This document shows positions 8,305 to 44,358 of a stretch of DNA of 64,000 nt, one piece after another. Numbering within the stretch: position 1 is the first letter of the stretch; every line of letters starts with the position of its first letter. The position numbers were made by a program, and so were the translations under genes. The DNA lies in assembly GCA_015063005.1 (NCBI GenBank), contig SUTF01000003.1, positions 124,001 to 188,000 of the forward strand, given 5' to 3'. The notes beneath the pieces were generated by a model that was not told the DNA's origin, ran no database searches, and was given only the letters and a program-made list of their open reading frames with translations. Origin of the DNA: Methanobrevibacter millerae. Its GTDB lineage: Archaea; Methanobacteriota; Methanobacteria; Methanobacteriales; Methanobacteriaceae.

Positions 8305-8310
8305 TTTCAA

Positions 8311-9855: not shown

Positions 9856-9886
9856 TTCACCTGTTTAGAAGTATATTACTTTTTGC

Positions 9887-11258: not shown

Positions 11259-11313
11259 AATAAGTACTCTCCCATGTAACTTTAATCATTAATTTATACC
11301 TCATAGTATAAAT

Positions 11314-25649: not shown

Positions 25650-25670
25650 ATAGAGGTTTAAAACCCCTAT
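25650..25670 (-). terminator. Stem-loop terminator after the surface protein operon
   Basis: On the minus strand ATAGGGGTTT pairs with AAACCTCTAT (one G-U wobble) and is followed by TTATTTTTTTT. It includes the end of the surface protein gene. Confidence 0.65.
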
Positions 25671-28600
25671 AATATTGTAATTTTATTAGAAATGGAATAT
25701 CCATTATAGATTGAAGTAATGATATATTCTCCAGCCATCAGATTAATGTTAAGACTGGCAACACCATTGCTTGCAGTAGTCCTATTGTAAAATACTCCAT
25801 TAATATTGAACTCGACCATTGCATCAGCCAAAGGATTTCCGACACCATCAAGGACTCTTGCCTTAAATTGATCAGAACTTCCATAATTTTTAGTCATGTC
25901 TTCGCCATACAGGACAGAGATTACATGGATATTATTGGACACCATGCAGCCTTTATATTCCGCAGTGATGATATAATCTCCAGGAGGCAGATTGATATTC
26001 AACTTGACATGTCCGGTAGCATTGCTTATGCGAGAGTAGAATACACCATTGATGTTGAATGTGACTTTTTCACCAGCGATAGGATTTCCATCATCACCAA
26101 TAACACGAACAACATATTGGGTATCGTTTTTATAGTATTTTATGATGTTGTGATTATCCATGAATCTTGACAGGACCACAATAGTGTTGGAGTATTGTTC
26201 TGTAGTATTTGAATTTATAGCTGTTAGGATGTATTCTCCAGGATTTAAATTAATGTTTAACCTTGCAACTCCGTTTTCATCAGTAGTACGGTTATAGAAT
26301 ACTCCATTAATGTTAAATGATACCTGTGTAGTTTTCAATGGATTGCCGTTGACATCAAGGAAAGTTGCATAATATTGTGAATCGTTTCTATAAACCTTAG
26401 TTAAGTTTTCACCGAATATAGTATCCTTGACAAAAACGTTTACCGTAATGCTTTCGGGAGCATACTTGTCATTTCCAAGATAGCTAATTTCAACAGCATA
26501 ATCTCCACGATTCAAGTTTAAAGCTATTGATGCCAAACCCTCTGAATCAGTGGTTCTGTTATATTTAACACCATTGATTAAAATGATTATTGTTTCACCG
26601 GATATTGGATTACCGGCATTATCACTCATAGTTACACTTAATCTTTGACTACCACCATAATATTTTATGACATCAGATGCATTCAAAATAACCTTGGAAT
26701 CGGAATCCACAACATTCAAAGTGGAATTGGCAGTTGCATCATTGTATTTTGAATCTTTTTTATATTCCACAGTGAAATCATAGGCACCGATTGGCAAGTC
26801 AGGTATCTCCACAGTAGCGATGCCATTATTTGCTTTGGCTGTATATGATTTACCTGCAATAACAACACTTATCTCCCCATCAGCATCAGGCATTAGATTA
26901 ACGTTGATTATTGCTACATCTCCTTCGACAATGTTTTTTGCATCAACGCCAAGATTAATGTCTTTTTTGGTTACGTTGAATGATGTTTGTGATGTGGCTG
27001 AAGAGTATTTGTCATCACCGTCAAATGTAGCAACGGCATCGTATTTTCCAACAGCAATTTCATCTTTAATTTCAACTGTTCCCTTACCTTTTGAAACTGA
27101 TACATTATAGGACTTACCGTTAATTAATACAGAAACATTTCCATTAATCTCATCATTCATTATGATATTGGCTGTCAATGGAGAATCTACAATAATATCG
27201 GCAATATTCAATTCCAAATTAGGGTCTAATTTATTGACTGTAATCTTAGATGTTGTGTTTGCTTGAGGATGCTGGTCATTGCCCAAGTAAGATGCGAATA
27301 CATATACAATACCTGTTTCATTGAATGCTAAAGTTAAATTAGCTATTCCGTTGGAAATAGTGCTTAAATAATTATTTCCATTTATGATAAACATTACGCT
27401 TCCATTTTCTATTAATTCATTGTTTTGGTCACGGACAATAGCCGAAATTACAGTCGGTGCATTTATTTGCGTTGCAATATTATTCACTTTAATGCTTGTT
27501 GTGTTCAATCCGCTGCTTCTTGTGTATGCTTTGATACATGCTACCTGTGAAGCGTACCTGTGTTCAATTTCAGGGTCGTCAAATACATAATCAAAACAGT
27601 CTATCCAGTTTTTAGCGTCGTAACTGAAATATGAAATTCCTTCACCATAGGTCAATCTTGATGCAGTTACAATTTCAAATATAGGAAAACTCGCCATTGA
27701 AGGTGCATCTATCCTGATTTGAATAGTGAAGTTATCTCCAACATTTAAGAGGAATTCTGTATCGAATGGGATTGTATAATATCCCAGTGTCGCTGAACCG
27801 TTTTGTGTTAACACCAATTCATCATTTATGAATAGGGAAACTTCATAATTAGAGTTCTGTTCGAAGAAGGTTCCGAATGCAGAGAGTATGTCATTTCCAA
27901 TAGATGTGAAAGTATTTTTATAGTATACGGTCTTTTCATGAGTTATAAGGAAATCTGTCATACCTCCGATATCATATTGGTAGTTTCTGTTGTATCTGAC
28001 TGTATCGTTTAAAATGAATGTATATGCATTATGGGAATTGTTTAATGCATAGACTATAGGGTCACAGTATGAAACATAGAAGTATCCTTCATCTCCCCAT
28101 CCGGTTCCCCAACTGTTTTTCACAATCCATGCGCCGTCGCATTCAGCCATGTCACCCATAGGGAAATTACTTTTTGGATATGTATCATCCCATCCGACTA
28201 TTGTTACGGCATGGTTAGGAGAATATCCTCCAAATACATAGTAATATGCTGCTTTATCCTCATTCCATACCAATGGATTTGTCTGATCCATGAATATGTT
28301 CACCGCTACAGCACCATAGTCAAGAATAGCCCTTTTCATTGCATCATTATCTGAATATGAAGTACGTGCAGGCAAATAGTAGACGTTCTGAACATGCATT
28401 ACCGGATCCAACAATGTGGATAATGTGGATAAATCATCATACTTGTCGTCACTTTCCAAAACAGGACCTATCCAACTTAAAAGGTTTCCATAAGTCATTT
28501 CATCATGTCCTCCTTCATTGGTTGAATATTTCCATCCATATGCTGAGTACAGTTCGACCAGGTTTTTAACGTTTTCTTCAGACAAATCATAGGAAATGCC

Positions 28601-30025
28601 TGTTGCCTTCAAGATACATGATTCCAAAGCAGCTATTCCTGCAAATGCCCAACAATTTCCACCGGCTTGCTGATCCCTTATTGGTGTGGACAATCCGTTT
28701 TCAACCAGACTGTATCTGGATGGCAAAACTCCTGTATATGAAGAGTTATATTTCATCATTGTATAATTGGAATTATAATCTATGTCGTATTCATATCCTT
28801 TTTGGTCATGTATAATAGTGTCGTCGCCTGCAACGTTATTTTCAAAGTCAACATCATTTAAAACCAGATGGTTGTTATTTGAAAATATTGCTCCACCTTT
28901 TCTTATTGCGGATGTGTCTTTTATCTTAACGTTATTCATTTCAGTTGAGGTACAGTTATCAATAAATATTGCGCCTCCGTCACGTGCTTCAGCAAGTGTA
29001 ATGTTTGAATTTCTTAATGAGAACTTACCATACATCTGATAGATTGCTCCACCTTCGAGTTTTGCAGTGTTGTTGTTGAAATTACAGTTTGAAATGTCAA
29101 GCACTGCATTTAAATTACATATTGCTCCACCGAAATCACCATGCCCATTAGAGAAATCAGTATTTTTAACAGTTAAATTTGTAACTTTTGCATATATCGC
29201 TCCACCTGCATCGCCTTCTGCATAGCAGTCATCGAAAATACAGTTTTCTATTATTATGCTTCCACCATCGGTAGCCAATACTCCACCATAAAGCTGGGAG
29301 TGGCTGTCATAGAATTTTGAGTTTTTAATTACTGTTACACCATTCTTATGATATATTGATCCTCCATAAACTGCTGAATTGTTCATGAATGTACAGTTAT
29401 CCAGAGTCAAATATGAGGGCATTCCATATCCTGCAAAATAAATTGAACCTGGACTGTATATGGCTCCTCCAAAAATGTCATTATATTCTGGAGATTTGTA
29501 ATATGCATCAGCTCCACGTCCATTTTTGAATATGACGTTGTGCGCCTCCAAGGTTCCCTGGTTTTGAATAACGGCACAGTCAAAAGTCATGTCCCAGACA
29601 TAAAGTCTAGCATTGTCATTTACAAAAATAGGAACAGTTCCAAAGGTTGACTTTAAGATGGTTCCTTCAGCACTTTCCCCATAAAATTTTACCTGTGTTG
29701 TTTCACTGTTTGAAAAAATGTCAATCAGTTCATCTATTTCATAGACACCATTTGCAAAGTATGCGGTATCACCATATTCAATTCTTGCATTTGTAACATA
29801 TTTATATGGATTTGCCTTAGACCCATCACCATCATTTGCAGAGGATGCATTGAAGTATATAACCTCCTCAAATGCAAGAACATCATCATTATTCACCATT
29901 GTTACTATTTCATCATTAATATCGCTTGTCTGACTAGCGTTTGCCATGTCTTCAGCGTTTACTGCTGAGATTGAAACAAAGCATAATATTAACAATGCAA
30001 AAATCATTATCTTTTTTATTTTCAT
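25667..30025 (-). CDS. Giant adhesin-like protein with beta-helix, papain-like protease and Ig-like repeats (A)
   Basis: The 1452-residue exported protein has a signal peptide (to about residue 24). A right-handed beta-helix (about 55-410) carries repeated GGAI(Y/F/C) turns. A C1A papain-like domain has Cys458 in GGNCWAF, His605 in SPNHAVTIVGWDD and Asn637 in VKNSWGTGWG, with the oxyanion Gln in RDQQAGG. Ig-like repeats follow from about 885. The last 335 residues form the four-repeat module (FNINGVFYNRTT...LNINL) shared with the other three giants here, ending NKITIL without a membrane helix. It starts 28 bp after protein B with AGGAG upstream, so they share a message. The protease may process surface partners or foreign peptides; this is inference. 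Confidence 0.88.
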   Translation of the reverse strand: MKIKKIMIFALLILCFVSISAVNAEDMANASQTSDINDEIVTMVNNDDVLAFEEVIYFNASSANDGDGSKANPYKYVTNARIEYGDTAYFANGVYEIDELIDIFSNSETTQVKFYGESAEGTILKSTFGTVPIFVNDNARLYVWDMTFDCAVIQNQGTLEAHNVIFKNGRGADAYYKSPEYNDIFGGAIYSPGSIYFAGYGMPSYLTLDNCTFMNNSAVYGGSIYHKNGVTVIKNSKFYDSHSQLYGGVLATDGGSIIIENCIFDDCYAEGDAGGAIYAKVTNLTVKNTDFSNGHGDFGGAICNLNAVLDISNCNFNNNTAKLEGGAIYQMYGKFSLRNSNITLAEARDGGAIFIDNCTSTEMNNVKIKDTSAIRKGGAIFSNNNHLVLNDVDFENNVAGDDTIIHDQKGYEYDIDYNSNYTMMKYNSSYTGVLPSRYSLVENGLSTPIRDQQAGGNCWAFAGIAALESCILKATGISYDLSEENVKNLVELYSAYGWKYSTNEGGHDEMTYGNLLSWIGPVLESDDKYDDLSTLSTLLDPVMHVQNVYYLPARTSYSDNDAMKRAILDYGAVAVNIFMDQTNPLVWNEDKAAYYYVFGGYSPNHAVTIVGWDDTYPKSNFPMGDMAECDGAWIVKNSWGTGWGDEGYFYVSYCDPIVYALNNSHNAYTFILNDTVRYNRNYQYDIGGMTDFLITHEKTVYYKNTFTSIGNDILSAFGTFFEQNSNYEVSLFINDELVLTQNGSATLGYYTIPFDTEFLLNVGDNFTIQIRIDAPSMASFPIFEIVTASRLTYGEGISYFSYDAKNWIDCFDYVFDDPEIEHRYASQVACIKAYTRSSGLNTTSIKVNNIATQINAPTVISAIVRDQNNELIENGSVMFIINGNNYLSTISNGIANLTLAFNETGIVYVFASYLGNDQHPQANTTSKITVNKLDPNLELNIADIIVDSPLTANIIMNDEINGNVSVLINGKSYNVSVSKGKGTVEIKDEIAVGKYDAVATFDGDDKYSSATSQTSFNVTKKDINLGVDAKNIVEGDVAIINVNLMPDADGEISVVIAGKSYTAKANNGIATVEIPDLPIGAYDFTVEYKKDSKYNDATANSTLNVVDSDSKVILNASDVIKYYGGSQRLSVTMSDNAGNPISGETIIILINGVKYNRTTDSEGLASIALNLNRGDYAVEISYLGNDKYAPESITVNVFVKDTIFGENLTKVYRNDSQYYATFLDVNGNPLKTTQVSFNINGVFYNRTTDENGVARLNINLNPGEYILTAINSNTTEQYSNTIVVLSRFMDNHNIIKYYKNDTQYVVRVIGDDGNPIAGEKVTFNINGVFYSRISNATGHVKLNINLPPGDYIITAEYKGCMVSNNIHVISVLYGEDMTKNYGSSDQFKARVLDGVGNPLADAMVEFNINGVFYNRTTASNGVASLNINLMAGEYIITSIYNGYSISNKITIL

Positions 30026-30053
30026 TTATTTCTCTCCTTAAAATGATAAATCA

Positions 30054-33000
30054 TCAGTTAATTGTTATTTTATTAGATATGTTTAATTCATTATAAGATG
30101 AAGTGATTATATACTCTCCACTTTGAAGATTGATGTTTAAGAGTGCTTCACCTAATGAATCAGTAAATCTGTCATAGAATACTCCATTAATATTGAATGT
30201 TATTTTTTGATTTGAAGCAGGTTTTCCCTGATTATCAAATGCGTTAACTTTGAATTTGCTTCCATCACGGTAGATCATGACCAAATCTTCACCAACAATC
30301 GTAGGCAATACGGAAATATTGTTGGATATCTTAAATGATCCATATTCTGCAGTTATTATATAATCGCCTGGAGCTAAATTGATATTCAGTTTTACATGAC
30401 CAGTATCATTAGTTTTTCTTTCATAAAATACTCCGTTAATATTGAATTTGACTATTTCACCTGATTTTGCATAACTTCCGTCATTGTTTACTAATCTGAC
30501 AACATACTGTGAATCGTTTCTATAGTATTTCACCAAATCATGATTTTCAACAATTCTTGGAAGAACAGTAATATTGTTAGACGCCATTTGATTGGATAAT
30601 GGATTATATGCAGTAATTATATAATTTCCTTGATTTAAATTAATATTTAATCTTGCAATTCCATTTTCATCTGTAGTACGGTTATAAAATACTCCATTGA
30701 TGTTAAATGTCACTACATTATTTTTTATAAGATTGCCTTCACTGTCTAGGAACTGAGCATAATACTGGCTTTCATTTCTGTACACTTTCACCAAATCATT
30801 TGCAAGTACAGTATCTTTAATAGTGACCATCGCATTCTTAGAAATATTATCACAAGTCACCATTATATCATAGCTTCCTTGATTTAAATTTAGTCCTATT
30901 GAAGCAATACCTTCACTATCAGTTTTGCGTGTATATGCAACACCATTAATTGATATGTTTACAGTCATATTCTCCAATGCATCACCATTAGAATTGCTAA
31001 CAGAAACAATCAACCTTTCACTGCCTCCATAATACTTGACCACATCTGAAACATCAACCAGAATACTTTCATCAGTAACATTATCCTGAGTGATGTTGGT
31101 ATCATTTTCAGGAGTGATATTGGTATCGTTTTGCGGTGTGACATTTTCAATAGGAATGACCTCTTTTTTAGTTACATTGAAAACTCCAGTGAATTTTGAA
31201 GCATTATAATAATCATTTCCACCATACTCTACAGTGTATGAATATGCATTTGCATTTAAATCACTGATTTTCACATTTGCTTTCCCATTGCTTATGAATG
31301 CCAAATATTGCTTTTCATTGATATTTATATAAACGACACCTGAAGCATCATTTTTCAATGTAATATTTACAATAGCAATTTGACCCTCTTCAATGTCACC
31401 GCATTCAGCAGTTAAATTAGGATTTGCCTTTAAAACACTGAAACTAGTTGAGTTATTTGAACTTAAGAAATATTCATTACCTTCAAATTCTGCACTTACC
31501 TGATAATTGCCAACTTTCAAATCAGAGATATCCAATATGGCTACACCATCATCAATCCCTATTTCATATTCCCTTGAATTGATTTTAATGCTGATGCTTC
31601 CTGAATTAATATTAGAAACTTCAGCGATGACAGTTGCATTATTGCCATAGATGACATCATCAACATGCACTTTCAATACAGATTTTTGCTTCAATACAGA
31701 AACATTACATGAATCTCTTGCAGACAAATAATCTGAATTTTCACCAGTATTGGCATTTATAGTATAATTTCCAGGTTTTAAATTAGAAATAACCAAATTG
31801 TTTTTAACAAAATAGTTATTGCCATTGACACTTATTATTACCGGCAGAGAAACATCCTCACCATCATTATTTGTCAAAGAAATATTTACAGCCAAATCCT
31901 CGCCATAAACTATATCACTTGAAATGATTTTCAAATTAAGAGAATCCTTGATTGTAATACTCTTAGAAGTATAAGAAGGATTATATTTATTATTTCCAGT
32001 ATAATTTGCCTCAATCAGGTGAATTCCATGATTAATTGATATGTCTATTTGAGATTTTCCGTTGATTACATCCCCGACATAGCTTTTTCCGTCAACCTTA
32101 AATTCAACATTACCTCCATTAACAACGGCACCGGCAGCAGTTACGCTGGCTATGATATGGGTGGATGAAGCTTCGGTTATTTCAATTGATGTATCCTTTG
32201 CAATTTCCTCTTGTTCGGATGCATTTTCATTTAAAACTGTATAAGCCTTAATGCATGCAACTTGTGAGGAATACTTATGGCCATAGCTATCAGCTATTGA
32301 ATAATCGCTTAAATCAGTCCAAGATTTACCGTCATAGCTGAAATATGAAACTCCTTTTGAATAAAATGCCTTTGAAGCAGAATACTCTTTCAAATGTTCT
32401 GAAATCATGAAGCTTGCATAGCCATTGCAGGAAATTTTAAGTTCTATTGTAAATTTATCGCCGCTTCTAAGTGAAACAGGAGTTTTCAAATTAATTGTAT
32501 AATATCCCATTCCTGAAATTCCATTTTGCGTGAGTTTCAAATCATCATTCACATATATTTTAGCCTCCCAGTTGGTTCTGCTTGCATTGAAGTAAGTACC
32601 GAATGCTGAAAGATACTCATCATCAGTGGATGTGAAAGTATTTTTATAATAAATGGTATTTTTACCTGTTACAAAGTAATCTGTCCATCCTGCAGGATCA
32701 TACTGGTAATTCTTATCAAATTTGACAGTATCATTTAAAATGAATGTGAAAGTGTTTTGAGGCTTGTTGATTTGAGCACAGCTTGTATCATAGTATGAAA
32801 CATAACCGAATCCGCTGTTTTGAACACCCCACTGATTTCCATAACTATTTTTAATAATCCATGCCCCATCACCAGCAGGAGTGGATGGGAAATTATATCT
32901 TGAGAAGGTATCGTCCCAGCCGACAATTGCAATTGCATGGTTTATATCGCCGCCTCCACTATAGTAATATCCTCCGGTTGAAGGACTGTAATAGGCACCA

Positions 33001-34712
33001 CTGTTTACAAAATAGATTTCAGAAGCAACAGCACCATATTTCATTATTGCCTCTTTAATCGCATTATTATCAGTATATGATGAACGCTGCAGGAACAGGA
33101 TATTGTTCACATGCATCAGACTGTCCATAACAGGTGAGATTACATCATTGTCATCAGTCAAATCCTGGCTTTCAAGCACCGGACCCAACCAGCTTAAAAG
33201 ATAACCTGTACTCATCCTATAAAATCCTCCATCATTTGTCTCATACTGCCAACCGTAATCAGAGAAATACTGAGCAAGATTTTTCAGATTGCCTTCAGAC
33301 AAATCAAATTCAGTTCCTGTAGCCTTTAAAATACATGATTCTAAAGTGGCCATAGTAGCATAAGCCCAGCAGTTACCACTATTAGCCTGATTTCTAATTG
33401 CAGATACCTGATTATAGTTACGCAAATCGAATTTGGAAGGAAGAGATCCTGCATATGCCGATTTGTATTGCATCAAAAGATAATCATCACTTGTGATTAT
33501 TGCATTGCCTATATCGCAGACATACTTGTCATCCTCATATTTAGCCCTATTTTGATTGAAGGTAGGATTTGAAAAGATATTTGCAATATTTGCATAGGCA
33601 AAGATAGCTCCTCCCACCTCACTGGCAACATTATTATTGAATTTAGAGTCCTTAACATAGAATGTTGTCAAATTGTCTGCAAAAATAGCTCCACCATTTT
33701 TAGCCATGTTTGAATCAAAAGTTGAGGAAGTCACCTTAAGATATCCATATAAAGAATATATTGCTCCTCCCTGATAGCTAGCATTATTGTTTTTAGCAAT
33801 AATATTATCCATAGTTAAAGTAGAATTCAGTCCAGTGACGGCAGGACCATAGAAAGATGAGGAGTCCGTGAAATTTGAATTTGTTATTGTTGCCTTAGAA
33901 TTGATTATGTAAACTGATCCTCCAGCATCATATTTTGACCTGTCATTTTTGAACTCACAATTATTGATTGTAGCACTGGCTCCTTTTAAAATGGCTATTG
34001 CTCCACCGAATTGTGTTGCTTCATTATCTATGAACTTACAATTATTCAGATTCACTGTTCCGGAAGATGCATAAATTGCACCACCATATTCCGCATGATT
34101 ATTCCTAAATATTGTATTTTGAGCTATAATCTTTGCTGATGAAGACAAAGTCGAGCTCATGGACACTGCTCCACCATAATTGTTTCCATAATTATCTGAA
34201 GAAACCCCTTTGGCGTTTTCAATTATTGAATTGGCCAAATCCAAAGTTCCATCAACCTTAAAGTTTGCACCCTGAATGGTCAAGCCCTTAATTGATATTG
34301 TGTTTCCAGAGGATGCTGTTAGAAAGGTATCTGATCCAGTATATTTGATTATAGTATTGTCTGCACCATTTCCCTCAAATGCAGCAGAACCGTAAAAGAA
34401 AAATGAGGGTCCGCTATCCAGCTGATAAGTTCCGCTTGCAAAAACATGCCTTGCATCACCGGAAATTCTACTTGAGGTCAAATATTTATAAGGACTTGAT
34501 TGAGTACCGCTACCGTCCGTTTTGGCAGAAGCATCAAAATAATATGTATAATAATAATCACCCAAGCTTTCACTGCCATCAATAGGTGTGGAAACAATAT
34601 CATTTGACACAATAGTCATATTGTTGTCAACACCATCATCCACAGCAGACACCGGGACAATAAGCAATGAAAGGAAAAGCAAAATTATTAAAAATTTATT
34701 TATAAAAGACAT
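30054..34712 (-). CDS. Giant adhesin-like protein with beta-helix, papain-like protease and Ig-like repeats (B)
   Basis: The 1552-residue paralogue of protein A has the same order: signal peptide (to about 24), beta-helix with GGAIY/GGAIF turns (about 60-400), papain-like domain, Ig-like repeats and the four-repeat C-terminal module ending NKITIN. The triad is complete: Cys448 in SGNCWAYA, His592 in INHAIAIVGWDD and Asn622 in IKNSYGNQWG. A Thr/Asn/Pro linker with NDTNIT sequons (about 1195-1215) could be glycosylated. AGGGGATAATA precedes the ATG. It is the first gene of a two-gene unit with protein A; a stem-loop separates it from protein C upstream. Confidence 0.88.
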   Translation of the reverse strand: MSFINKFLIILLFLSLLIVPVSAVDDGVDNNMTIVSNDIVSTPIDGSESLGDYYYTYYFDASAKTDGSGTQSSPYKYLTSSRISGDARHVFASGTYQLDSGPSFFFYGSAAFEGNGADNTIIKYTGSDTFLTASSGNTISIKGLTIQGANFKVDGTLDLANSIIENAKGVSSDNYGNNYGGAVSMSSTLSSSAKIIAQNTIFRNNHAEYGGAIYASSGTVNLNNCKFIDNEATQFGGAIAILKGASATINNCEFKNDRSKYDAGGSVYIINSKATITNSNFTDSSSFYGPAVTGLNSTLTMDNIIAKNNNASYQGGAIYSLYGYLKVTSSTFDSNMAKNGGAIFADNLTTFYVKDSKFNNNVASEVGGAIFAYANIANIFSNPTFNQNRAKYEDDKYVCDIGNAIITSDDYLLMQYKSAYAGSLPSKFDLRNYNQVSAIRNQANSGNCWAYATMATLESCILKATGTEFDLSEGNLKNLAQYFSDYGWQYETNDGGFYRMSTGYLLSWLGPVLESQDLTDDNDVISPVMDSLMHVNNILFLQRSSYTDNNAIKEAIMKYGAVASEIYFVNSGAYYSPSTGGYYYSGGGDINHAIAIVGWDDTFSRYNFPSTPAGDGAWIIKNSYGNQWGVQNSGFGYVSYYDTSCAQINKPQNTFTFILNDTVKFDKNYQYDPAGWTDYFVTGKNTIYYKNTFTSTDDEYLSAFGTYFNASRTNWEAKIYVNDDLKLTQNGISGMGYYTINLKTPVSLRSGDKFTIELKISCNGYASFMISEHLKEYSASKAFYSKGVSYFSYDGKSWTDLSDYSIADSYGHKYSSQVACIKAYTVLNENASEQEEIAKDTSIEITEASSTHIIASVTAAGAVVNGGNVEFKVDGKSYVGDVINGKSQIDISINHGIHLIEANYTGNNKYNPSYTSKSITIKDSLNLKIISSDIVYGEDLAVNISLTNNDGEDVSLPVIISVNGNNYFVKNNLVISNLKPGNYTINANTGENSDYLSARDSCNVSVLKQKSVLKVHVDDVIYGNNATVIAEVSNINSGSISIKINSREYEIGIDDGVAILDISDLKVGNYQVSAEFEGNEYFLSSNNSTSFSVLKANPNLTAECGDIEEGQIAIVNITLKNDASGVVYININEKQYLAFISNGKANVKISDLNANAYSYTVEYGGNDYYNASKFTGVFNVTKKEVIPIENVTPQNDTNITPENDTNITQDNVTDESILVDVSDVVKYYGGSERLIVSVSNSNGDALENMTVNISINGVAYTRKTDSEGIASIGLNLNQGSYDIMVTCDNISKNAMVTIKDTVLANDLVKVYRNESQYYAQFLDSEGNLIKNNVVTFNINGVFYNRTTDENGIARLNINLNQGNYIITAYNPLSNQMASNNITVLPRIVENHDLVKYYRNDSQYVVRLVNNDGSYAKSGEIVKFNINGVFYERKTNDTGHVKLNINLAPGDYIITAEYGSFKISNNISVLPTIVGEDLVMIYRDGSKFKVNAFDNQGKPASNQKITFNINGVFYDRFTDSLGEALLNINLQSGEYIITSSYNELNISNKITIN

Positions 34713-34745
34713 TATTATCCCCTTAAATTAAATAAAAAAAGAAAA

Positions 34746-34766
34746 AATAGCTTGAATTAAGCTATT
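34746..34766 (-). terminator. Stem-loop terminator after surface protein C
   Basis: AATAGCTT and AAGCTATT form an 8-bp stem. The stop codon of protein C lies at the loop edge and a T run follows on the minus strand. Confidence 0.7.
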
Positions 34767-37700
34767 GTAATTTTATTTGATTTGTTTAAAGTTCCATAGG
34801 TTGTAGTTATAATATATTCTCCTTTTTGAAGATTAATGTTTAAACTAGCCAATCCATTAGCATCTGTTGTTCTATCATATAAAACACCATTAATATTAAA
34901 TGAAACAGATTGATTTGGATTAGGATTACCTTGATTGTCAAGAACTGTTACATTAAATTTAGTGCCATCCAAATAATTCATTTCCAAATCCTCAGACACA
35001 ATAGTGGATAAAACTTTGACATTATTGGATACCTGACAGTCATTATATTCTGCAGTGATAATATAATCTCCAGGTTCAAGATTAATGTTTAGTTTAACCC
35101 AACCATCACTGTCAGTGGTTCTTGTATAGAATACACCGTTAATGTTGAATGTTGCATTAACACCAGCACCTACAGGTTTGCCATCATAACCCCATAATCT
35201 AGCCTTATATGGAGTTGCATTGCGGTAATATTTAACTACATTCTCATTGTCTGTAATTGTAGGCAATACAGTTACAGTGTTTCCCTTAACCTCACCAGTT
35301 ACAGGATTGAATGCTGTGATAATATATTCCCCCTGGCGGAGATTGATATTTAATCTTGCATATCCAGACAAATCGGTAGTACGATTATAGAATACTCCAT
35401 TAATGTTGAATGATGCATTAACGCCGCTGACAGGAGTTCCATTGAAATCTAAAATCAATGCCACATATTGTGTACCGTTTCTGAAAATCTTAGTAATGTT
35501 TTTTGAAACTATTGTTGTTTTAACGTTGATTTTGCTTGAAACATTTAAAGCATTGTATTTATCAGAACCTGCATATGAAACATCTACATCATAAATACCG
35601 CTGTCCAAATTAATTGCCATTGACGCCAAACCGTTTTCATCCGTTTTTCTTGTATAATCCCTTCCATTAAGGTTTATGTTAATTGTTTCACCTGAAATTG
35701 GATTTAGCTTTTCATCAGTTAATCTCACAACAAATCTGGAGCCGTCATGATAATACATTTCCAACTCATCAGCAGACAATATAATATCAGTTAATTCAGT
35801 GTCATTTGATGGAGTCACATTTGTATCGTTAACCGGATCCACTGGAGTTACATTAGTATCATTTACAGGATCTACAGGAGTCACGTTAGTATCATTTACA
35901 GGATCTACAGGAGTGACATTAGTATCATTGACAATTTTTTCAATTACCTTAAAAGGAACCTTTTTGGAAACGCTTGAATTATACTTTTCGCTGCCGAGAT
36001 ATTTGACTTGAACAGTATAATCGCCTGTTTCAGTTAGAATAAAGTTATATGATTTAGCTGCTTGTGTAGTTGTAATTAAAATATCATTAATATATATTTC
36101 AACATTGCCTTCACTTACAGAAGCACCGTCTTTATCTGTTACCTTAGGAGTAATGATTATATTGTCACCAGACACTATTTCAGGAAGATTGACTGATACA
36201 TCACTAACAGTTGCCAATACACTATCAGTTACATTGTCATCAGTAGTATTGTCTGTAGTGTTAGTGTCAGTGGTATTATCATCAGTTGCATTATCTCCGG
36301 TAGAGTTATCATCAGTAGTGTTATCAATAGGACCATCATCCTCGAAAACAACAGTTATTGTAATAGTGGATGATGAACTTGGATTATACTCATCATTACC
36401 TAAATAATATGCCTTGATATCATATGTTGAAGGCAGGAATGGATAGTATTCATAACTTTCACCAACATTGATGGTAGTCATGTTCATATCCAAAACGGAA
36501 ATGGCCACACGACCTGAAGTCACAGGTTTGTTATTCTTGTCAGTTACCTTAGGAGTAATCAATACCTTATTGCCATAAAGAACCTTTGTTGCATTTACAT
36601 TGATAGTTGTAACTGTATCCATTGATTCGACAGGTCCAACATCATCTTTGGTTACATTAATCTGAACTGAATTGGATCTGCTTGATTTGTGTGATGCATC
36701 AGCCAAGAATTCCGCGTAAACCTCAACAGTACCTACATCAGAAGGAGTTATTGTGTATGTCTGGCCTACATTTATTGTAGCAACTTTTGAATTGTCAACA
36801 TAAATGTTAATATATCCGCTGGTTATCTCATTATTATTTGAATCATATACTGAAGGAGTAATAAGTGCGCTTTCACCCAATTTCAAGTTTAAAGGATCTG
36901 CATCAATAGTTATGGAGGTATTTTGAGTGGTATTTTCATCAGCTTCAGCAACATAATATGCCAAAACGTTACTTGTTGCATTGGATAGGTGTTCATTTCC
37001 TTTATAGAATGCAGTGAAATTATACCATCCAGGTTCAGTGAATGCTAATGTTGCGCCGTTAGCCCATTGACCGTTAGGACTGACTGCAATTTGACCCAAA
37101 TATTCACCATTCATATATATTGATAAAAATTCATTAATTGAACTTTGCCCTTCCTTATTGGTCTTTGAAATTAAATCAGATATGGAGTTTCCAAGCTCTG
37201 CACTGGATAAATTGTTTAGGATAACTCCTTTATCTCCAATATTTTTATATATTACACTGCTTGAAGTGGAATTGTCATATAATTTCAAAGATGTCTGATA
37301 AGTCTTGTTAGTATCAATTGGAGTGCTTCCGCCCCCAATGATGTAAGTTAAGGTATTACTTGTAACTTGTCCAAAAATAGATGTTGAGTGAGCATATACA
37401 GTGTATGTACCTGCTTCAGTAAATGTAAAAGTTACGCCGTTTGATTTTGCTACAGAAACATAAGCAACAGCCTGACTATATCCGTTAATGTTTAGATAAA
37501 AGATATCACTATCACTGGAAAGAACATATGGCCTTACATTCAATGTTACAGAACCGGTACCTCTTGTGATTCTATCCGAATCAGGATATTGACTATCACT
37601 TATTGTTATTTCACCATCCCCAATGATTGAATCATCATTGGAAACTTGATAAATTTCATTGCTTTGAGATGAAATTTCAACATTATTAGTTAATATCGTT

Positions 37701-37843
37701 TCATTTTCATCAATTTCACTTGCTGAGACTGCACTAATGCAAAATAGTGCTAAAGTCAAAACAATTAGCAAACTAAATATTTTCTTAATATTATAGCCTC
37801 CCGAATTACTATTTAAAAAATCATTTATCGATATAATCTCCAA
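34757..37843 (-). CDS. Large adhesin-like Ig-repeat protein without protease domain (C)
   Basis: The protein has a signal peptide (KKIFSLLIVLTLALFCISAVSA), about five Ig-like domains, a Thr/Asn/Asp linker, a threefold 11-residue NDTNVTPVDPV repeat (DNA about 35818-35930), and the same four-repeat C-terminal module as A, B and D, ending NKITIA. It lacks the beta-helix and the protease. The listed start is a TTG at 37843 without a ribosome-binding site. GGGAGG at 37797-37802 lies seven bases before an in-frame ATT at 37789, which would begin exactly at the signal peptide and give 1010 residues. The 18-bp DtxR-like box is just upstream. It may be a passive wall component or adhesin. Confidence 0.82.
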   Translation of the reverse strand: MEIISINDFLNSNSGGYNIKKIFSLLIVLTLALFCISAVSASEIDENETILTNNVEISSQSNEIYQVSNDDSIIGDGEITISDSQYPDSDRITRGTGSVTLNVRPYVLSSDSDIFYLNINGYSQAVAYVSVAKSNGVTFTFTEAGTYTVYAHSTSIFGQVTSNTLTYIIGGGSTPIDTNKTYQTSLKLYDNSTSSSVIYKNIGDKGVILNNLSSAELGNSISDLISKTNKEGQSSINEFLSIYMNGEYLGQIAVSPNGQWANGATLAFTEPGWYNFTAFYKGNEHLSNATSNVLAYYVAEADENTTQNTSITIDADPLNLKLGESALITPSVYDSNNNEITSGYINIYVDNSKVATINVGQTYTITPSDVGTVEVYAEFLADASHKSSRSNSVQINVTKDDVGPVESMDTVTTINVNATKVLYGNKVLITPKVTDKNNKPVTSGRVAISVLDMNMTTINVGESYEYYPFLPSTYDIKAYYLGNDEYNPSSSSTITITVVFEDDGPIDNTTDDNSTGDNATDDNTTDTNTTDNTTDDNVTDSVLATVSDVSVNLPEIVSGDNIIITPKVTDKDGASVSEGNVEIYINDILITTTQAAKSYNFILTETGDYTVQVKYLGSEKYNSSVSKKVPFKVIEKIVNDTNVTPVDPVNDTNVTPVDPVNDTNVTPVDPVNDTNVTPSNDTELTDIILSADELEMYYHDGSRFVVRLTDEKLNPISGETININLNGRDYTRKTDENGLASMAINLDSGIYDVDVSYAGSDKYNALNVSSKINVKTTIVSKNITKIFRNGTQYVALILDFNGTPVSGVNASFNINGVFYNRTTDLSGYARLNINLRQGEYIITAFNPVTGEVKGNTVTVLPTITDNENVVKYYRNATPYKARLWGYDGKPVGAGVNATFNINGVFYTRTTDSDGWVKLNINLEPGDYIITAEYNDCQVSNNVKVLSTIVSEDLEMNYLDGTKFNVTVLDNQGNPNPNQSVSFNINGVLYDRTTDANGLASLNINLQKGEYIITTTYGTLNKSNKITIA

Positions 37844-37861
37844 AAGACCACATCAATATAT

Positions 37862-37879
37862 ATTTAGGTATGACTAAAT
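37862..37879. promoter_or_regulatory. DtxR-like box upstream of surface protein C
   Basis: The 18 bases are identical to the box at 11314-11331. On the minus strand they run straight into ATATATATTG, a TATA-like segment. The site lies between divergent genes, so it could also affect thyA. Confidence 0.55.
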
Positions 37880-37967
37880 ATTTAAACATATTGAAATAAG
37901 CACTCAAACACTAAATTTAATTAACTTAAAAAACAAAAATAAAATTAATTTAAAAGGATTGTTTAAG

Positions 37968-38666
37968 ATGTTAAGTATTAATCAATGTTACTTGGATTTT
38001 GTCAACAAAATCCTCAAAGAAGGGAAAGAAACTTATAAGGACAGCAATCATCATTTAGTTGAAAGTCTTGGTAATTATTACTTGATTGATGACCCACTAG
38101 ATTTAAAATTCGAAGCCAAATATCAGCACATGACCTGTGAAATGATGCTTGATGAAATTAAATCAGGAAAATTCGATATTGATGAATGTCCAATTAAAAG
38201 CGATGCATTATATGAATATGTAAAATCATTTGAAGACAGCTCAGACCAAGGATTTGTCTACTCATATCCCAACCGTATTTTAGCTCATTTCGATATAAAC
38301 CAATTTGATGTTATGAAAGAAAGAATATTACATGCAACAGGAAGTAATAGGGCTGTTGCTATCACATATGATCCAAAACTTGATGCTGACCGAGAAGATA
38401 TTCCATGTCTTCAATTCTTACAGTGCATTGTCAGAAATAATGTGTTGACAATCCATTGCTTATTTAGAAGCAATGATATTTTTGGTGCATTCTATTCAAA
38501 CATGTTTTTCATAGCCTATATCGGCATTAAAATGAAAGAAGAACTAAACAAAGAGTTGCTTGGTGAAAAAGTAAACTTCGGAGGAATCCATTACCATTCC
38601 ACATCCGGCCACATATACAACACAGACTTAAAAGCAGCTCGCAAATTAATAGCTAACAACAAATAG
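37968..38666 (+). CDS. thyA: Archaeal-type thymidylate synthase
   Basis: The 232-residue protein methylates dUMP to dTMP; the archaeal enzymes probably use a methanopterin-type cofactor. Family features are RAVAITYDP, the active-site region IPCLQFLQ with the nucleophilic Cys, the dUMP-binding FRSNDIFGAFYSN and IHYHSTSGHIY. The length matches the short archaeal form. The ATG at 37968 is preferred to the in-frame TTG at 37959. It is a housekeeping gene inside the surface-protein island, divergent from protein C and convergent with protein D. Confidence 0.82.
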   Translation: MLSINQCYLDFVNKILKEGKETYKDSNHHLVESLGNYYLIDDPLDLKFEAKYQHMTCEMMLDEIKSGKFDIDECPIKSDALYEYVKSFEDSSDQGFVYSYPNRILAHFDINQFDVMKERILHATGSNRAVAITYDPKLDADREDIPCLQFLQCIVRNNVLTIHCLFRSNDIFGAFYSNMFFIAYIGIKMKEELNKELLGEKVNFGGIHYHSTSGHIYNTDLKAARKLIANNK

Positions 38667-38697
38667 CTATTATTACTTATTTTTAAAAAAAAAGAAT

Positions 38698-38719
38698 ATT
38701 AGGTTTTTAAAAACCTAAT
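38698..38719. terminator. Bidirectional stem-loop terminator
   Basis: ATTAGGTTTTTAAAAACCTAAT is a perfect 22-bp palindrome between the convergent thyA and surface protein D genes. A-rich sequence upstream of it gives a T run for the minus-strand transcript. Confidence 0.75.
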
Positions 38720-41700
38720 TATAATATTTTTATTGTATTTGAAACACTCAATCCATTATACATTGAAGTGATAATGTATAGGCCTTTCTGCAAATTGATG
38801 TTTAGACTAGCAATACCCAGACTATCAGTGGATCTTTGATAAAATACTCCATTAATATTGAAATTGACTATTTGATTTGAATATGGCCTTCCATAGTCAT
38901 CAAGAAGCTTTACCCTGAAACTGCTGCCGTCTTTATATCTAATTGTCAGGTCATTACTTTGCAGAATGCTTAAAACCTCAATGTTATTTGATACCCTCAA
39001 TCCGTCATATTCTGCAGTGATAATATATTTTCCAGGTTCAAGATTGATGTTTATTCTTGCAACACCATTGCTATCAGTTACTCTTTGATAAAATACTCCA
39101 TTAATATTGAATGTTATGGTTTTACCTGCATCGGCCTTACCCTGATTATCCAACAGTTTAACACTGTATCTTGATGCATTCTTATAATATTTCACCAAAT
39201 CATGGTTTTCAACCAATTTTGAAAGAATAGTGATATAGCTGGTCTTCATCTCACCAGTTACTGGATTTGTTAAAGTCAACTGATAAATTCCAGGTTCAAG
39301 GTTAAGATTCAACCTAACAACACCAGCATCACTTGAAGTCCTATAATACATTACTCCGTTAATGTTCATTTGAGCAAGCATATTTCTTAAAACTTTACCA
39401 TTATTATCCAATATGGTTGCATAATACTGTGTATCATTTCTATAATGTTTGGTAACGTCATTTGAAGAAATTGTTGATTTTACTTCAATAGTATTATATA
39501 CGTATGATTCGCCATGATTTGCATCGCCAGAATATTTGGCAGAAACGGTATATTTTCCAGGATCCAAATTAATGGCAATTGAAGCAATTCCATTATAGTC
39601 AGTGTATCTAGTATAGTCAACTCCACGTATATTAAATACCACCGCTTTATTGGTTAAAGGATTTGCATTGTTATCCTGCAACTTTACAGAGTATTTGCTT
39701 CCATCTTTATAATACATTACAACATTGCTTGAAGTCAGTGAAGTAGTATATGAGATTACACTGAAAGTATCAAATGCTGAAACTGCATCATACTTGTTAT
39801 TTCCGCCATATGTCAATCGGGCATTATATGAGCCAATTGAGAAAGTGTCCGGTATAGTAAACTGCGTTACACCATTTTTAACATTGACAGAATATGCCTG
39901 ATTATTAATAATAATGTTTGCATTGACAGCAGCGTCTGATGTTATTTGGGCTACTGGCCTATTACCATACAATACATCATCTATTGAGAATTTAAGATTA
40001 ATGCTTGATTTACTTATGCTAACCGTTGAGGTCGTAATAGCCTGCTGGTAATTAGTAGCACTGAATCTGGATGTTACTGTATATGTTCCTGCTGTGGAAA
40101 ATGAAGTGGAAAGTTTTGCTTGGCCGTTTTTTACATCAACAGTTGAAGTTTTACCATTTAGTGTGAAAATGACACTGCCGACATTTAAAGGATTATTATT
40201 TGAATCATACACCTTAGCGACAATGTCCACATTTTCGTCAACTATAGCATTTACATTTAAAACTGTGATTTTTGTCGGTAAAATCACGCTGTTAACAGTG
40301 ACAGTTGATCTTGCAGAAGATGAAGAATAGGAACCTCCGCCAAATACAGCACTAACCAAATAACTGCCAGCATTTGAAAATGAAGTGGACAAAACAGCCT
40401 GACCATTCCTAACACCAACAGAAGAAGTCCTACCATCAACAGTAAAAGCAACACTACCAACATTAATAGCATTATTAGAAGAATCCAAAACACGAGCAAC
40501 AATATCAACAGAACTACCCACATTAACAGCCATATCACTCAAAATAACCTTGGAAGGCAAAATAACATTATTAACAGTGACAGTAGCTCTTGCAGAAGAT
40601 GAAGAATAGGAACCTCCGCCAAATACAGCACTAACCAAATAACTGCCAGCATTTGAAAATGAAGTGGACAAAACAGCCTGACCATTCCTAACACCAACAG
40701 AAGAAGTCCTACCATCAACAGTAAAAGCAACACTACCAACATTAATAGCATTATTAGAAGAATCCAAAACACGAGCAACAATATCAACAGAACTACCCAC
40801 ATTAACAGCCATATCACTCAAAATAACCTTGGAAGGCAAAATAACATTATTAACAGTGACAGTAGCTCTTGCAGAAGATGAAGAATAGGAACCTCCGCCA
40901 AATACAGCACTAACCAAATAACTGCCAGCATTTGAAAATGAAGTGGACAAAACAGCCTGACCATTCCTAACACCAACAGAAGAAGTCCTACCATCAACAG
41001 TAAAAGCAACACTACCAACATTAATAGCATTATTAGAAGAATCCAAAACACGAGCAACAATATCAACATAACTACCCACATTAACCTGAATATTGCTTAA
41101 TGATACTTTTGAAGGAGTTTTATCAACAATATTAACTCTAATATTTGTTGAAGATGACTTATAATCATCACCTTCAAACGTTAAGTAAACATTGGAACTG
41201 CGAACGAGCAAAGTATTCAAAGTAGCCTTTCCATTGTTGACATCAACTGTGGTTTTTTCACCATTGATATTGAATGTGACCTTGCCGGAGTTAACCAGAT
41301 TGCCGTTTGAGTCTTTTACTGTTGCAACAATATTTGCACTATTATAATTGGTCGAATATGTTGCTGAAATTGTAGTATCCAAAACTTTTTCAATTACATT
41401 GATTAATGAAGTTGTTCTTGAAGACTTATACTGAGTTGATTCAAATATTGCAGTTACAGTGAAAGATCCTGCATTATTATATGCTGTTGTATAAACTGCT
41501 TTACCGTTTTTAATGGCAACTGTTTCCATTTTACCGTTTGTTGAAAAAGCAACATTTCCGGAAGTGATTAAATTATTATTTGAATCATAAACTCTGGCGG
41601 TTATGTCAACATTTTCACCAACCCTAGGTGAATCATATGATAAAACAATGCGTGAGTTTGGAAGAACCTTTTTGACTTCAACATTAGCTGTAGCTGTAGA

Positions 41701-44358
41701 AGGATTATAATGGATATATGAAAATGAAGCCCTTACAGTATAGTTTCCTTCATTTGCAAAAGAATAGTTTAAAACAGCTTTTCCGGCTGATATAGGAACC
41801 TCATAATTTTTTCCATTGACTGTGAATATGACGTTTCCGACAGTAAGTCTGTGATTGTGAGCGTCAATAACATTTGCTTCAATAGCAAAGTTCTCACCAA
41901 CATCAACTTCATAATCTTTCATTTCAATGATTGTGTTTAAAGTATCCAATGTAGTGAATGCCTTAATACATGCGACTTGCGAAACGAATACGTTCTCACT
42001 GTTATAAACTCGCAATTCATATAAGTCACTCCATCTTCTGCCGTCATAACTGAAAAATGACATGCCTTTAGTATAGGTTACCTTATTTGTATATTTGGTT
42101 TCTGAAATAGGAACCATGACGTTATAATTTGCGGATTTTTTAATGATAATCTCAAAATTGTCTCCCTTGTGGAGAGGAATGAACTTATCCAATTTGAAAG
42201 TGTAATACCCTGCTGTGGAAGTTCCATGCTGGGAATACTTCAATTCATTGTTTACATAAATTTGAGCCTCAAAATCTGCATCATCATAGAAATATGTTGA
42301 AAATGCGGCAAGCAACTCATCATCTGTTGAATTGAAAACGTTTTTGTACCATACTGTTTTTTGTCCGCTATTAAAAAAGCTTGTCATTCCTATAATGTCA
42401 TATTGATAGTTCTTATCCAAATCAACTGTATTGTTTAAAATGAATGTATATGATGCCAAGGTGTTTCCCACTTCAGCTAAAACAGTATCATAATATGAAA
42501 CATAGAAGTATCCGTCTTTTCCAAACTCTTCGCCCCAGCTATTTTTACAAATCCATGCACCATTTCCCTGAGGAGTATTTTTGAAATTATATCTTGAATA
42601 ATTATCATCCCATCCGACAATTACAACTGCATGATTACGTTCCAATTTACCATTGTAATAAAATCCATAAGTCTTTTCATTATAATAATTGTCGTCATTA
42701 TGTATACCACTTACAACTCCCCCATATCTCATGATTGCTGATTTGATTTCATTATTATCCAGATATGAGTTACGGTTCAGACAGATAATATCCTGAATAT
42801 GGAATCTGGAGTGAAGAACAGCAGATAATGTTGAATGGTCATCGAATCTATCATCCTTCTCGAAAACAGGACCCAGCCAACTGGTCAGATATCCGACAGC
42901 CATCAAATCATAACCGCCGGTATTGGTTTCTATGTTCCATCCATAGTCTGAATATAAGCTGATTAGGTTTTTCATATTTTCTTCAGATAAGTCATAGGTA
43001 TCTCCAGTAACTTTTAAAATACATGATTCCAATGCACCAATAGCTGCAAATGCCCAGCAGTCCCCACTGGATTGCTGATTCTTAACTGGAGTGACATAAC
43101 CTCTATCAACCAAACTATAATAAGATGGAAAAACAGTAATATCATCATGAATTTGATTATTTACGATCAAAGTATAATTTCCATCCCCCAACCATAAATT
43201 AATCTGTTTAGTTACGTATAAATCATTGTTAATCTGAGCTTTATTGTTATAATAAGTATTTGACACCTTAGGTATATCATTATATATGGAGTAAATACCG
43301 CCACCACAGACTTCAGCCTCATTTGAATAGAATACGTTTGCATCGATATGATGGCCTGTAGCATTATCTAAAAATATTGCTCCACCGTTTTTTGCTGAAT
43401 TGAAAAAGAAATTTGAATTTGAAGCATAAAGAGAGCCGTACAATGAATAGATAGAACCCCCACTATAAAGAGCCCTATTATTATAAAATCTTGAATTGGT
43501 AATTGTAGTATATGAACTTAAATCACAAATTGCCCCACCAAAGGTTGCATTACAATCGTTGAAGGTAGATCTTTCGACAGTGACATTTCCTTTCTTAAAG
43601 TATAATGCACCACCTGCTCCATCAATAGTATAATCATTTTTAAACTCCGTATTTTTGATTATGATTGTTGAACCTTCCCTTGCTGCAATAGCTCCGCCGT
43701 AATTATAAGCAACATTATTTTCAAAATGGGAATTTGTAATAGTTAAAGTACCATGAGTCATGTATATTGCCCCACCATACTCTGCATAATTTCCCCTAAA
43801 GGTTGAATTATCAATGTAGAGATGAGGACTGTAATGTTCACCGGGATTGTAAATAGCTCCTCCAAAGGAATTATTATAAACGCCCGGTCTTGCTATACCA
43901 TCTTCCAGAATTGAATTTGTAATATGTATTGTTCCATGATTAACAATACTAATGCCTGAAAATGTGACATTTGCTAATGTAAAGTGAGCAATAGTTAAAA
44001 CATGATGACTTCTAACTATTGTGTTGGCTGCACCTGAGCCATAAACTGTTAAATTATTGAATTGTATTGAAGATGATGAATCGAAGAGATATTCACCACT
44101 AGCCAGGTGAATTCTCTGATTGTTTCTCATATATTCTTGTCTCAATTGATTATAAGGATTATTTTTTGATCCATCACCATTAATTTGTGCTGATGCATCA
44201 AAATAAATGTCATTATCGTTATTTCTTAGGACATACTCTTCCTCATTAACTGTCAATGTAATATTGGATTCATTTTCCATAGCATAAGTTGAAGGAATAA
44301 CCAATAACATGAACATTAAGAAAACAATTAATGATAAAAGATTATATTTTTTATTCAT
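38719..44358 (-). CDS. Giant adhesin-like protein with beta-helix, papain-like protease and Ig-like repeats (D)
   Basis: This is the largest gene here, about 1879 residues from the ATG at 44358, which has AGGAGG seven bases upstream; an in-frame TTG at 44376 is less likely. Order: signal peptide (to about 28), beta-helix with GGAIY turns (about 60-360), papain-like protease with Cys434 (GDCWAFA), His576 (RNHAVVIVGWDD) and Asn606 (CKNSWGEEFG), and about seven Ig-like repeats. Three of these are nearly identical 93-residue copies. The shared four-repeat C-terminal module ends NTIKIL. No C-terminal membrane helix or LPxTG-like sorting site is seen, so attachment must occur otherwise. Confidence 0.88.
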   Translation of the reverse strand: MNKKYNLLSLIVFLMFMLLVIPSTYAMENESNITLTVNEEEYVLRNNDNDIYFDASAQINGDGSKNNPYNQLRQEYMRNNQRIHLASGEYLFDSSSSIQFNNLTVYGSGAANTIVRSHHVLTIAHFTLANVTFSGISIVNHGTIHITNSILEDGIARPGVYNNSFGGAIYNPGEHYSPHLYIDNSTFRGNYAEYGGAIYMTHGTLTITNSHFENNVAYNYGGAIAAREGSTIIIKNTEFKNDYTIDGAGGALYFKKGNVTVERSTFNDCNATFGGAICDLSSYTTITNSRFYNNRALYSGGSIYSLYGSLYASNSNFFFNSAKNGGAIFLDNATGHHIDANVFYSNEAEVCGGGIYSIYNDIPKVSNTYYNNKAQINNDLYVTKQINLWLGDGNYTLIVNNQIHDDITVFPSYYSLVDRGYVTPVKNQQSSGDCWAFAAIGALESCILKVTGDTYDLSEENMKNLISLYSDYGWNIETNTGGYDLMAVGYLTSWLGPVFEKDDRFDDHSTLSAVLHSRFHIQDIICLNRNSYLDNNEIKSAIMRYGGVVSGIHNDDNYYNEKTYGFYYNGKLERNHAVVIVGWDDNYSRYNFKNTPQGNGAWICKNSWGEEFGKDGYFYVSYYDTVLAEVGNTLASYTFILNNTVDLDKNYQYDIIGMTSFFNSGQKTVWYKNVFNSTDDELLAAFSTYFYDDADFEAQIYVNNELKYSQHGTSTAGYYTFKLDKFIPLHKGDNFEIIIKKSANYNVMVPISETKYTNKVTYTKGMSFFSYDGRRWSDLYELRVYNSENVFVSQVACIKAFTTLDTLNTIIEMKDYEVDVGENFAIEANVIDAHNHRLTVGNVIFTVNGKNYEVPISAGKAVLNYSFANEGNYTVRASFSYIHYNPSTATANVEVKKVLPNSRIVLSYDSPRVGENVDITARVYDSNNNLITSGNVAFSTNGKMETVAIKNGKAVYTTAYNNAGSFTVTAIFESTQYKSSRTTSLINVIEKVLDTTISATYSTNYNSANIVATVKDSNGNLVNSGKVTFNINGEKTTVDVNNGKATLNTLLVRSSNVYLTFEGDDYKSSSTNIRVNIVDKTPSKVSLSNIQVNVGSYVDIVARVLDSSNNAINVGSVAFTVDGRTSSVGVRNGQAVLSTSFSNAGSYLVSAVFGGGSYSSSSARATVTVNNVILPSKVILSDMAVNVGSSVDIVARVLDSSNNAINVGSVAFTVDGRTSSVGVRNGQAVLSTSFSNAGSYLVSAVFGGGSYSSSSARATVTVNNVILPSKVILSDMAVNVGSSVDIVARVLDSSNNAINVGSVAFTVDGRTSSVGVRNGQAVLSTSFSNAGSYLVSAVFGGGSYSSSSARSTVTVNSVILPTKITVLNVNAIVDENVDIVAKVYDSNNNPLNVGSVIFTLNGKTSTVDVKNGQAKLSTSFSTAGTYTVTSRFSATNYQQAITTSTVSISKSSINLKFSIDDVLYGNRPVAQITSDAAVNANIIINNQAYSVNVKNGVTQFTIPDTFSIGSYNARLTYGGNNKYDAVSAFDTFSVISYTTSLTSSNVVMYYKDGSKYSVKLQDNNANPLTNKAVVFNIRGVDYTRYTDYNGIASIAINLDPGKYTVSAKYSGDANHGESYVYNTIEVKSTISSNDVTKHYRNDTQYYATILDNNGKVLRNMLAQMNINGVMYYRTSSDAGVVRLNLNLEPGIYQLTLTNPVTGEMKTSYITILSKLVENHDLVKYYKNASRYSVKLLDNQGKADAGKTITFNINGVFYQRVTDSNGVARININLEPGKYIITAEYDGLRVSNNIEVLSILQSNDLTIRYKDGSSFRVKLLDDYGRPYSNQIVNFNINGVFYQRSTDSLGIASLNINLQKGLYIITSMYNGLSVSNTIKIL
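40290..41085 (-). repeat. Three near-identical 279-bp tandem repeats in surface protein D
   Basis: The block containing GAAGAATAGG recurs at 40322, 40601 and 40880, a strict 279-bp (93-codon) period. The copies differ at only a few bases while neighbouring Ig-like repeats are diverged, which indicates recent duplication or gene conversion. The last unit is partial at its high-coordinate end. Confidence 0.9.

Follow-up and report, generated by a model that had tools for sequence, protein, structure and literature searches.

The window analysed here, a stretch of 64,000 nucleotides from Methanobrevibacter millerae, carries four minus-strand open reading frames, A to D, all of which were found as stated in the original prediction. 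Protein A (25667..30025, 1452 aa) is composed of a signal peptide, a beta-helix, a linker, a C1A protease, a lectin-like domain, an Ig-like stalk and a C-terminal module, an architecture that is repeated in protein B (30054..34712, 1552 aa) and, with a longer Ig-like stalk, in protein D (38719..44358 if read from an ATG, or up to 44376 if read from a TTG, which gives 1885 aa). The ATG lies six codons after the TTG and corresponds to the end coordinate that had been given previously. Protein C (34757..37843, 1028 aa) bears Ig-like repeats and a copy of the C-terminal module (about 34760-35788), and lacks both the protease and the beta-helix. The gaps between A and B (28 bp) and between B and C (44 bp) are short, consistent with co-transcription. 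A plus-strand gene that had previously been overlooked (37959..38666) separates C from D; it is thymidylate-synthase-like, with a Pfam score of 24.0 bits that is slightly below the cut-off of 24.3, and it is used here as a synteny marker outside the system. An Rfam scan of the whole window rendered no matches.

Pfam searches and alignments confirmed that A, B and D share a signal peptide (a hydrophobic N-terminus, as judged by eye), a beta-helix of the GGAI type (Chlam_PMP), a C1A protease, Ig-like repeats (Big_3_5/Big_1) and the C-terminal module, while C matched only Ig-like domains and that module. The protease family PF00112 was detected at 70.6-87.1 bits against a cut-off of 20.7, with E-values of 1e-19 to 1e-24 against all of Pfam. 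Directly C-terminal to each protease there is a Lectin_like domain (PF18560, 52-85 bits), which was absent from the earlier description of these proteins. In A, the beta-helix head (28805..29863, about residues 55-407, like all the following features on the minus strand) consists of Chlam_PMP repeats modelled by AlphaFold2 as strands, mostly with pLDDT >90, and is joined to the protease by a linker (28736..28804, about residues 408-430, pLDDT 64-77) that stands in the place of a prosegment and whose motif, of the type GNGNYT...LPSxYDLR, is seen again in relatives. The protease itself (28046..28735, residues 431-660, 74.4 bits) contains Gln452, Cys458 (28652-28654), His605 (28211-28213) and Asn637 (28115-28117), and is followed by the lectin-like domain (27521..27982, residues 682-835, 52.5 bits), the Ig-like stalk of Big_3_5 repeats (26696..27520, residues 836-1110) and the C-terminal module of four Ig-like repeats (25670..26695, residues 1111-1452, delimited by alignment, pLDDT 91). 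The corresponding regions of B are the protease at 32763..33458 (about residues 419-650, with C448, H592 and N622; 70.6 bits) and the lectin-like domain at 32238..32708 (residues 669-825, 84.7 bits); those of D are the protease at 42457..43146 (about residues 411-640 of P0004, with C440, H582 and N612; 87.1 bits) and the lectin-like domain at 41953..42408 (residues 657-808 of P0004, 74.8 bits). D also has tandem Ig-like repeats at 40292..41085, with a period of 279 bp and 2.8 copies that are 99% identical.

The best sequence matches in the PDB were 4ci7 and 4d59, both of Cwp84 from Clostridioides difficile, which ranked above all cathepsins (E 1.6e-28 for A and 4.6e-40 for a profile of A, B and D). 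A model of residues 26-842 of A obtained with AlphaFold2 and 42 relatives (pLDDT 86.8, pTM 0.85) again had 4d59 as its top match in Foldseek, with a similarity that extends across the protease and the lectin-like domain (E 8e-22, TM 0.82 on the target), and the predicted papain fold also matched cathepsins. Cwp84 matures SlpA at the surface of C. difficile and has a cleft that is made deeper by the lectin-like domain (PMC4089489). Both Cwp84 and the proteins described here have a C1A domain followed by a lectin-like domain, in the same order, in a surface protein that is retained in the wall (probably so for A, B and D), but the identity is about 25%, and Cwp84 carries a short propeptide where A, B and D have the beta-helix. 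In Cwp84 this propeptide is cleavable, wraps round the lectin-like domain and lies in the cleft. Pfam matched no propeptide family, neither in A, B and D nor in the 43 aligned members, and in A the propeptide position is occupied by the beta-helix and the linker. The anchors differ as well, CWB2 in Cwp84 versus an Ig-like stalk and a putative M1-C-type module in A, B and D, in none of which Pfam detected CWB2 cell-wall-binding repeats. Moreover, Cwp84 is one enzyme with one known substrate, whereas the M. millerae genome encodes 11 paralogues.

The spacings of the triad (Cys to His/His to Asn) of 147/32 in A, 144/30 in B and 142/30 in D agreed exactly with those reported before, and a Gln for the oxyanion hole is found six residues N-terminal to the Cys in the three proteins. 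Each of them has a sequence match to peptidase family C1A and the ordered Gln, Cys, His and Asn, and the predicted model of A has a papain fold. Among the proteins that could be aligned, with fragments excluded, Gln and Cys are conserved in 119 of 120 rows (the lone exception stems from an insertion that splits the alignment), His in 122 of 122 and Asn in 121 of 122. The E-values obtained for PF00112, together with the intact triads of some 120 relatives, indicate that the assignment of the protease is not due to chance. Selection was assessed against a close relative used as orthologue reference, a contig of a goat-reticulum MAG (L112). Identity between A and its orthologue is 91% in the protease and 92% in the lectin-like domain, versus 78% in the beta-helix and 57% in the stalk, and dN is lowest in the protease plus lectin-like domain among all parts of A (0.05). 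The dN/dS ratio is about 0.05 for the protease in A and D and 0.17-0.21 for the stalk, figures whose ranking counts more than their values because synonymous distances are close to saturation; dN alone gives the same ranking for A.

With the four catalytic residues almost unchanged across 122 proteins, and the protease belonging to the parts under most constraint, the protease of A, B and D is very likely to be catalytically active. The conserved catalytic residues, the purifying selection and the predicted fold, which resembles that of Cwp84, support the claim of an intact, apparently active surface protease. It could also be that the C1A fold has been retained for binding alone, as a catalytically dead scaffold, and some members point in that direction: one protein of the same genome (L065) has Asp in place of the triad Asn, a relative (L066_3390) carries CWD instead of CWA/CWT, and the first unit of a further relative (L109) carries CIA. 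An I29-type propeptide is absent too. But A, B and D retain all four residues, the strongest constraint falls precisely on the protease, and Cwp84, which cleaves SlpA, has Ser (according to the alignment) at the position where A, B and D keep the Asn of papain. Conservation therefore disfavours a dead enzyme, which we regard as very improbable.

The C-terminal module spans about 340 aa, and the copies of B, C and D are 48-57% identical to that of A; it is also found in surface proteins that lack a protease. Foldseek searches with the module rendered only generic Ig-domain chains with low TM-scores. Its best-known counterpart, M1-C, a conserved C-terminal domain of about 200 aa with a weak likeness to Big_1, has been proposed as a wall anchor in M. 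ruminantium (PMC2812497). The module is Big_1-like and located at the end of the protein; the M1 proteins match our profile, which was built from A to D, weakly or not at all. We infer that A, B and D are secreted, and they are probably retained in the wall through this module. Protein C had been proposed to be a matching non-enzymatic partner of the proteases. This idea received little support, given that L112 alone contains a clear counterpart to the N-terminal part of C (78% identity), in an orthologue that occupies the same place, and that the matches elsewhere were weak and of the Ig type; C was consequently rejected as a conserved partner.

The placing of a complete protease between a beta-helix and an Ig stalk had been considered unusual, and a search for it across methanogens had been proposed. 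Such a search indicated that it is common. The source genome contains 11 matches each to PF00112 and PF18560, all in the same 11 open frames, and both families are present in 65 of the 67 genomes of the genus, including all 37 of good quality, with 1 to 21 copies of PF00112 where it occurs. At the level of the order, 107 of the 151 genomes and 7 of the 19 genera have PF18560. Architecture was analysed in 122 ORFs with the C1A-lectin unit, taken from the window and from 80 fetched loci that were drawn from the search match lists, mostly from their top-scoring entries, and that therefore do not form a random sample. Of the 115 members whose start is complete and whose catalytic Cys could be aligned, 114 have three or more GGAI-type motifs ahead of the protease (1 of 115 in a shuffled control), the C-terminal module was matched in 90 of 106 complete members, and the 43 aligned members with an N-terminus matched PF00112 and PF18560 in every case and Chlam_PMP in 40. 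The arrangement of beta-helix, protease and lectin-like domain is the normal one in the genus. As a separate observation, the source genome has no chagasin-type Inhibitor_I42 domain, which across the genus occurs in just 8 of the 67 genomes; the possibility of a paired endogenous inhibitor was discarded.

The distribution in the phylum bears on one of the three roles that had been put forward, the processing of wall components, which for the related proteins of M. ruminantium was suggested by Leahy et al. (2010; PMC2812497) in the form of pseudomurein turnover, the protease cutting peptide links of the wall. The proteins are probably located in the pseudomurein wall, which speaks for this explanation. 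However, a profile of the protease and lectin-like domains of A, B and D matched 107 of 152 genomes, and 28 of the 91 good genomes, every one of which belongs to the order with pseudomurein walls or lies close to it, are devoid of the unit, which is present in only 7 of 20 genera. Moreover, the unit is also found in Clostridia, Bacteroidota and Fibrobacterota, and PF00112 and PF18560 both have matches (counted per genome, not per protein) in Methanosarcina acetivorans, which lacks pseudomurein. The cross-links of pseudomurein are in addition isopeptide bonds, known as a substrate of C71 enzymes rather than of C1A. The genomes without the unit and its presence in bacteria without pseudomurein make this the least likely of the three roles, and we consider it improbable.

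A quick tree built from 116 units places the relatives from Clostridia, Bacteroidota and Fibrobacterota together on one side (SH-aLRT 97). A, B and D belong to three different orthologue groups, each with members from other genomes; a recent local triplication was accordingly rejected. The gene order D, thymidylate-synthase-like gene, C, A is also found in L112, without B, and the adjacency of A and B is seen again in L106 and L114. The bacterial relatives, from the rumen (L203-L217), are likewise secreted and have the same C1A and Lectin_like unit, but their protease begins at residue 77-143, that is, after a short prosegment and without a beta-helix, and their retention part is a dockerin or a Por_Secre_tail instead of an Ig-like stalk. 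On the archaeal side, one protein (L093) has no beta-helix and the Methanosphaera-like members have other N-terminal parts. In view of these exceptions and of the short bacterial prosegment, a beta-helix head in the place of the prosegment characterises the methanogen branch for the most part. It is conceivable, if unlikely, that the beta-helix acts as a ligand-gated pro-domain replacing the propeptide of the Cwp84 type: the linker would lie in the cleft and shut it, and binding of a glycan or a partner cell by the head would free the cleft or allow the protease to cut the linker and shed the head, resulting in a surface protease activated by contact.

The reading to which we give first place, because of the precedent of Cwp84, and which by analogy has about an even chance of being correct, is that of a wall-tethered processing protease that trims surface proteins, most likely the cell's own adhesin-like proteins. 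The signal peptide would export the protein and the C-terminal Ig-like module would hold it in the wall, with the Ig-like stalk as a spacer that sets the reach of the two-domain protease and displays it. The lectin-like domain would line the cleft and position the substrate, and the beta-helix head would bind a ligand and perhaps substitute for the prosegment. The protease could then trim proteins within its reach, most likely wall-associated adhesin-like proteins of the same cell and possibly its own linker, in the way that Cwp84 acts on SlpA. The sequence and fold match to Cwp84, the conservation of the catalytic residues, the constraint, the constant lectin partner and the sharing of the C-terminal module with protease-free surface proteins speak for such processing, as does the fact that the bacterial relatives join the unit to retention parts of their own. 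The analysis shows the architecture, the conservation, the constraint, the likeness to Cwp84 and the prevalence directly, whereas secretion, attachment to the wall by the C-terminus and catalytic activity are inferences and the substrate is proposed by analogy alone. Against it stands the lack of a canonical propeptide in A, B and D according to Pfam, and we know of no SlpA-like S-layer precursor in these pseudomurein-walled archaea.

The residues around the cleft would fit several or foreign substrates equally well, which also weighs against own-surface processing. Most positions equivalent to the substrate rim of papain, as assigned by sequence alignment alone, have entropies of 2.4-3.6 bits versus a domain mean of 1.76, and some are partly fixed per group, such as His507 in the group of A, Glu576 in the nearest kin of B and Asp457 in the three proteins of the group of D shown. 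This may reflect different substrates for each orthologue group, a weak argument since exposed positions vary anyway. A serious rival, albeit less probable than processing, is that the beta-helix binds partner microbes, protozoa, mucus or feed particles and the tethered protease cleaves foreign surface proteins for attachment, release or nutrients. The beta-helix is the presumed ligand-binding part of adhesin-like proteins of this kind (PMC11532034), and a putative C1 peptidase adhesin that is increased in Methanobrevibacter vesicles could carry the activity outward (PMC12134236). The variable rim around a constant catalytic core would suit this cleavage on contact, as would the expansion of the family, which reaches 10-21 copies in part of the genus, compared with 1-2 in genomes of the M. 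smithii type. On the other hand, copy number also rises simply with genome size (Spearman 0.75), and the variability of the rim was judged from sequence alone. Among the roles suggested in the original prediction, cleavage on contact and maturation of surface proteins are both more probable than wall processing.

If active, these proteins would provide the main methane producers of the gut with a large array of extracellular enzymes, expanded in this lineage and displayed towards bacteria, protozoa and the host, at which inhibitors or antibodies might be aimed; the precedent of Cwp84 yields predictions that are directly testable. The discovery is nevertheless modest, since A, B and D, with their signal peptide, right-handed beta-helix and Ig-like (Big) repeats, are methanogen adhesin-like proteins (ALPs) and belong to an abundant class already on record. 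Papain domains were described in 2010 in several M1-C-bearing adhesin-like proteins of M. ruminantium (PMC2812497), Cwp84-type units were reported in archaea in 2014, and in a transcriptome of 2018 mru_0015 and mru_0020, annotated as 'adhesin-like protein with cysteine protease domain', were raised by lauric acid (PMC5816558). In a survey of 2024, M. smithii and M. stadtmanae were each listed with one ALP that has a papain domain (PMC11532034), and the vesicle protein mentioned above, a putative peptidase_C1 that also carries adhesin-like domains, comes from a proteome of 2025. The system is therefore not new by name, but it can be called under-described in that the literature on methanogen papain adhesins rendered neither substrate nor biochemistry. 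What the present analysis adds is the prevalence, the constant lectin partner, the beta-helix that replaces the short bacterial prosegment and the diversified orthologue groups. The passages on these proteins in the two reports on M. ruminantium (PMC2812497, PMC5816558) make no mention of the lectin-like domain.

Two archaeal systems are closest to the proteins of the window. M. ruminantium M1 (G089) has the C1A-lectin unit (L080, L081), with PF00112 in adhesin-like proteins that end in the Big_1-like M1-C domain, but its copies belong mostly to other groups of the tree and, as stated, respond poorly to the C-terminal profile. In M. smithii (G006), L070 (1458 aa) has a beta-helix, PF00112, PF18560, an Ig-like stalk and the C-terminal module (444 bits), and its close relative L071 falls together with B in the tree (support 89); the difference lies in the number of copies, one or two per genome versus 11. 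Because of this low copy number, the peptidase_C1 of the vesicles is taken to be the orthologue of L070.

The number of genes with a papain-type protease domain (PF00112) rises with genome size across 41 genomes of the genus, which carry 1 to 20 copies each (Spearman 0.75), so that these genes contribute to genome expansion in the genus. Within the window, the Ig-like stalk of protein D contains a 279-bp tandem repeat (40292-41085; 2.8 copies), and the 99% identity among its copies indicates that the Ig-like domains were recently amplified or homogenised by gene conversion. A shorter repeat of 33 bp is found in protein C (35811-35933; 3.7 copies), where it encodes VNDTNVTPVDP and forms a Thr/Pro-rich spacer N-terminal of the C-terminal module.

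Two other copies in the source genome depart from the usual active site. The triad Asn is replaced by Asp in one (L065, G000:C11:28000-38500, ORF 3463-6675), and the nucleophile lies in a CWD motif in the other (L066, ORF 3390-10472); judging from these residues, both could possibly be weakened or altered enzymes. In other genomes, locus L109 (G012:C35:11500-28500) has a single ORF (3-10643; 3546 aa or longer) that encodes three units of C1A protease followed by the lectin-like domain, the first of them with CIA instead of CWA at the active site. At locus L089 (G118:C1:389500-405500), a member adjoining an intact one is broken within the protease domain into two frames (7129-9855 and 9888-11288), and is apparently a decayed copy, or else an assembly error.

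In relatives from rumen Clostridia/Bacillota, a dockerin is joined to the C1A-lectin unit (L205, 4773-7640; L206, 3951-5618), so that this protease unit, too, probably sits docked in cellulosome-like complexes there.

Three ORFs near the cluster (24066-24821, 24928-25605 and 46366-47010; 214-251 aa) had no match in a Pfam search. The window also encodes, at 1549-3321, an OLD-family AAA ATPase with a TOPRIM domain, a type frequent in defence systems.
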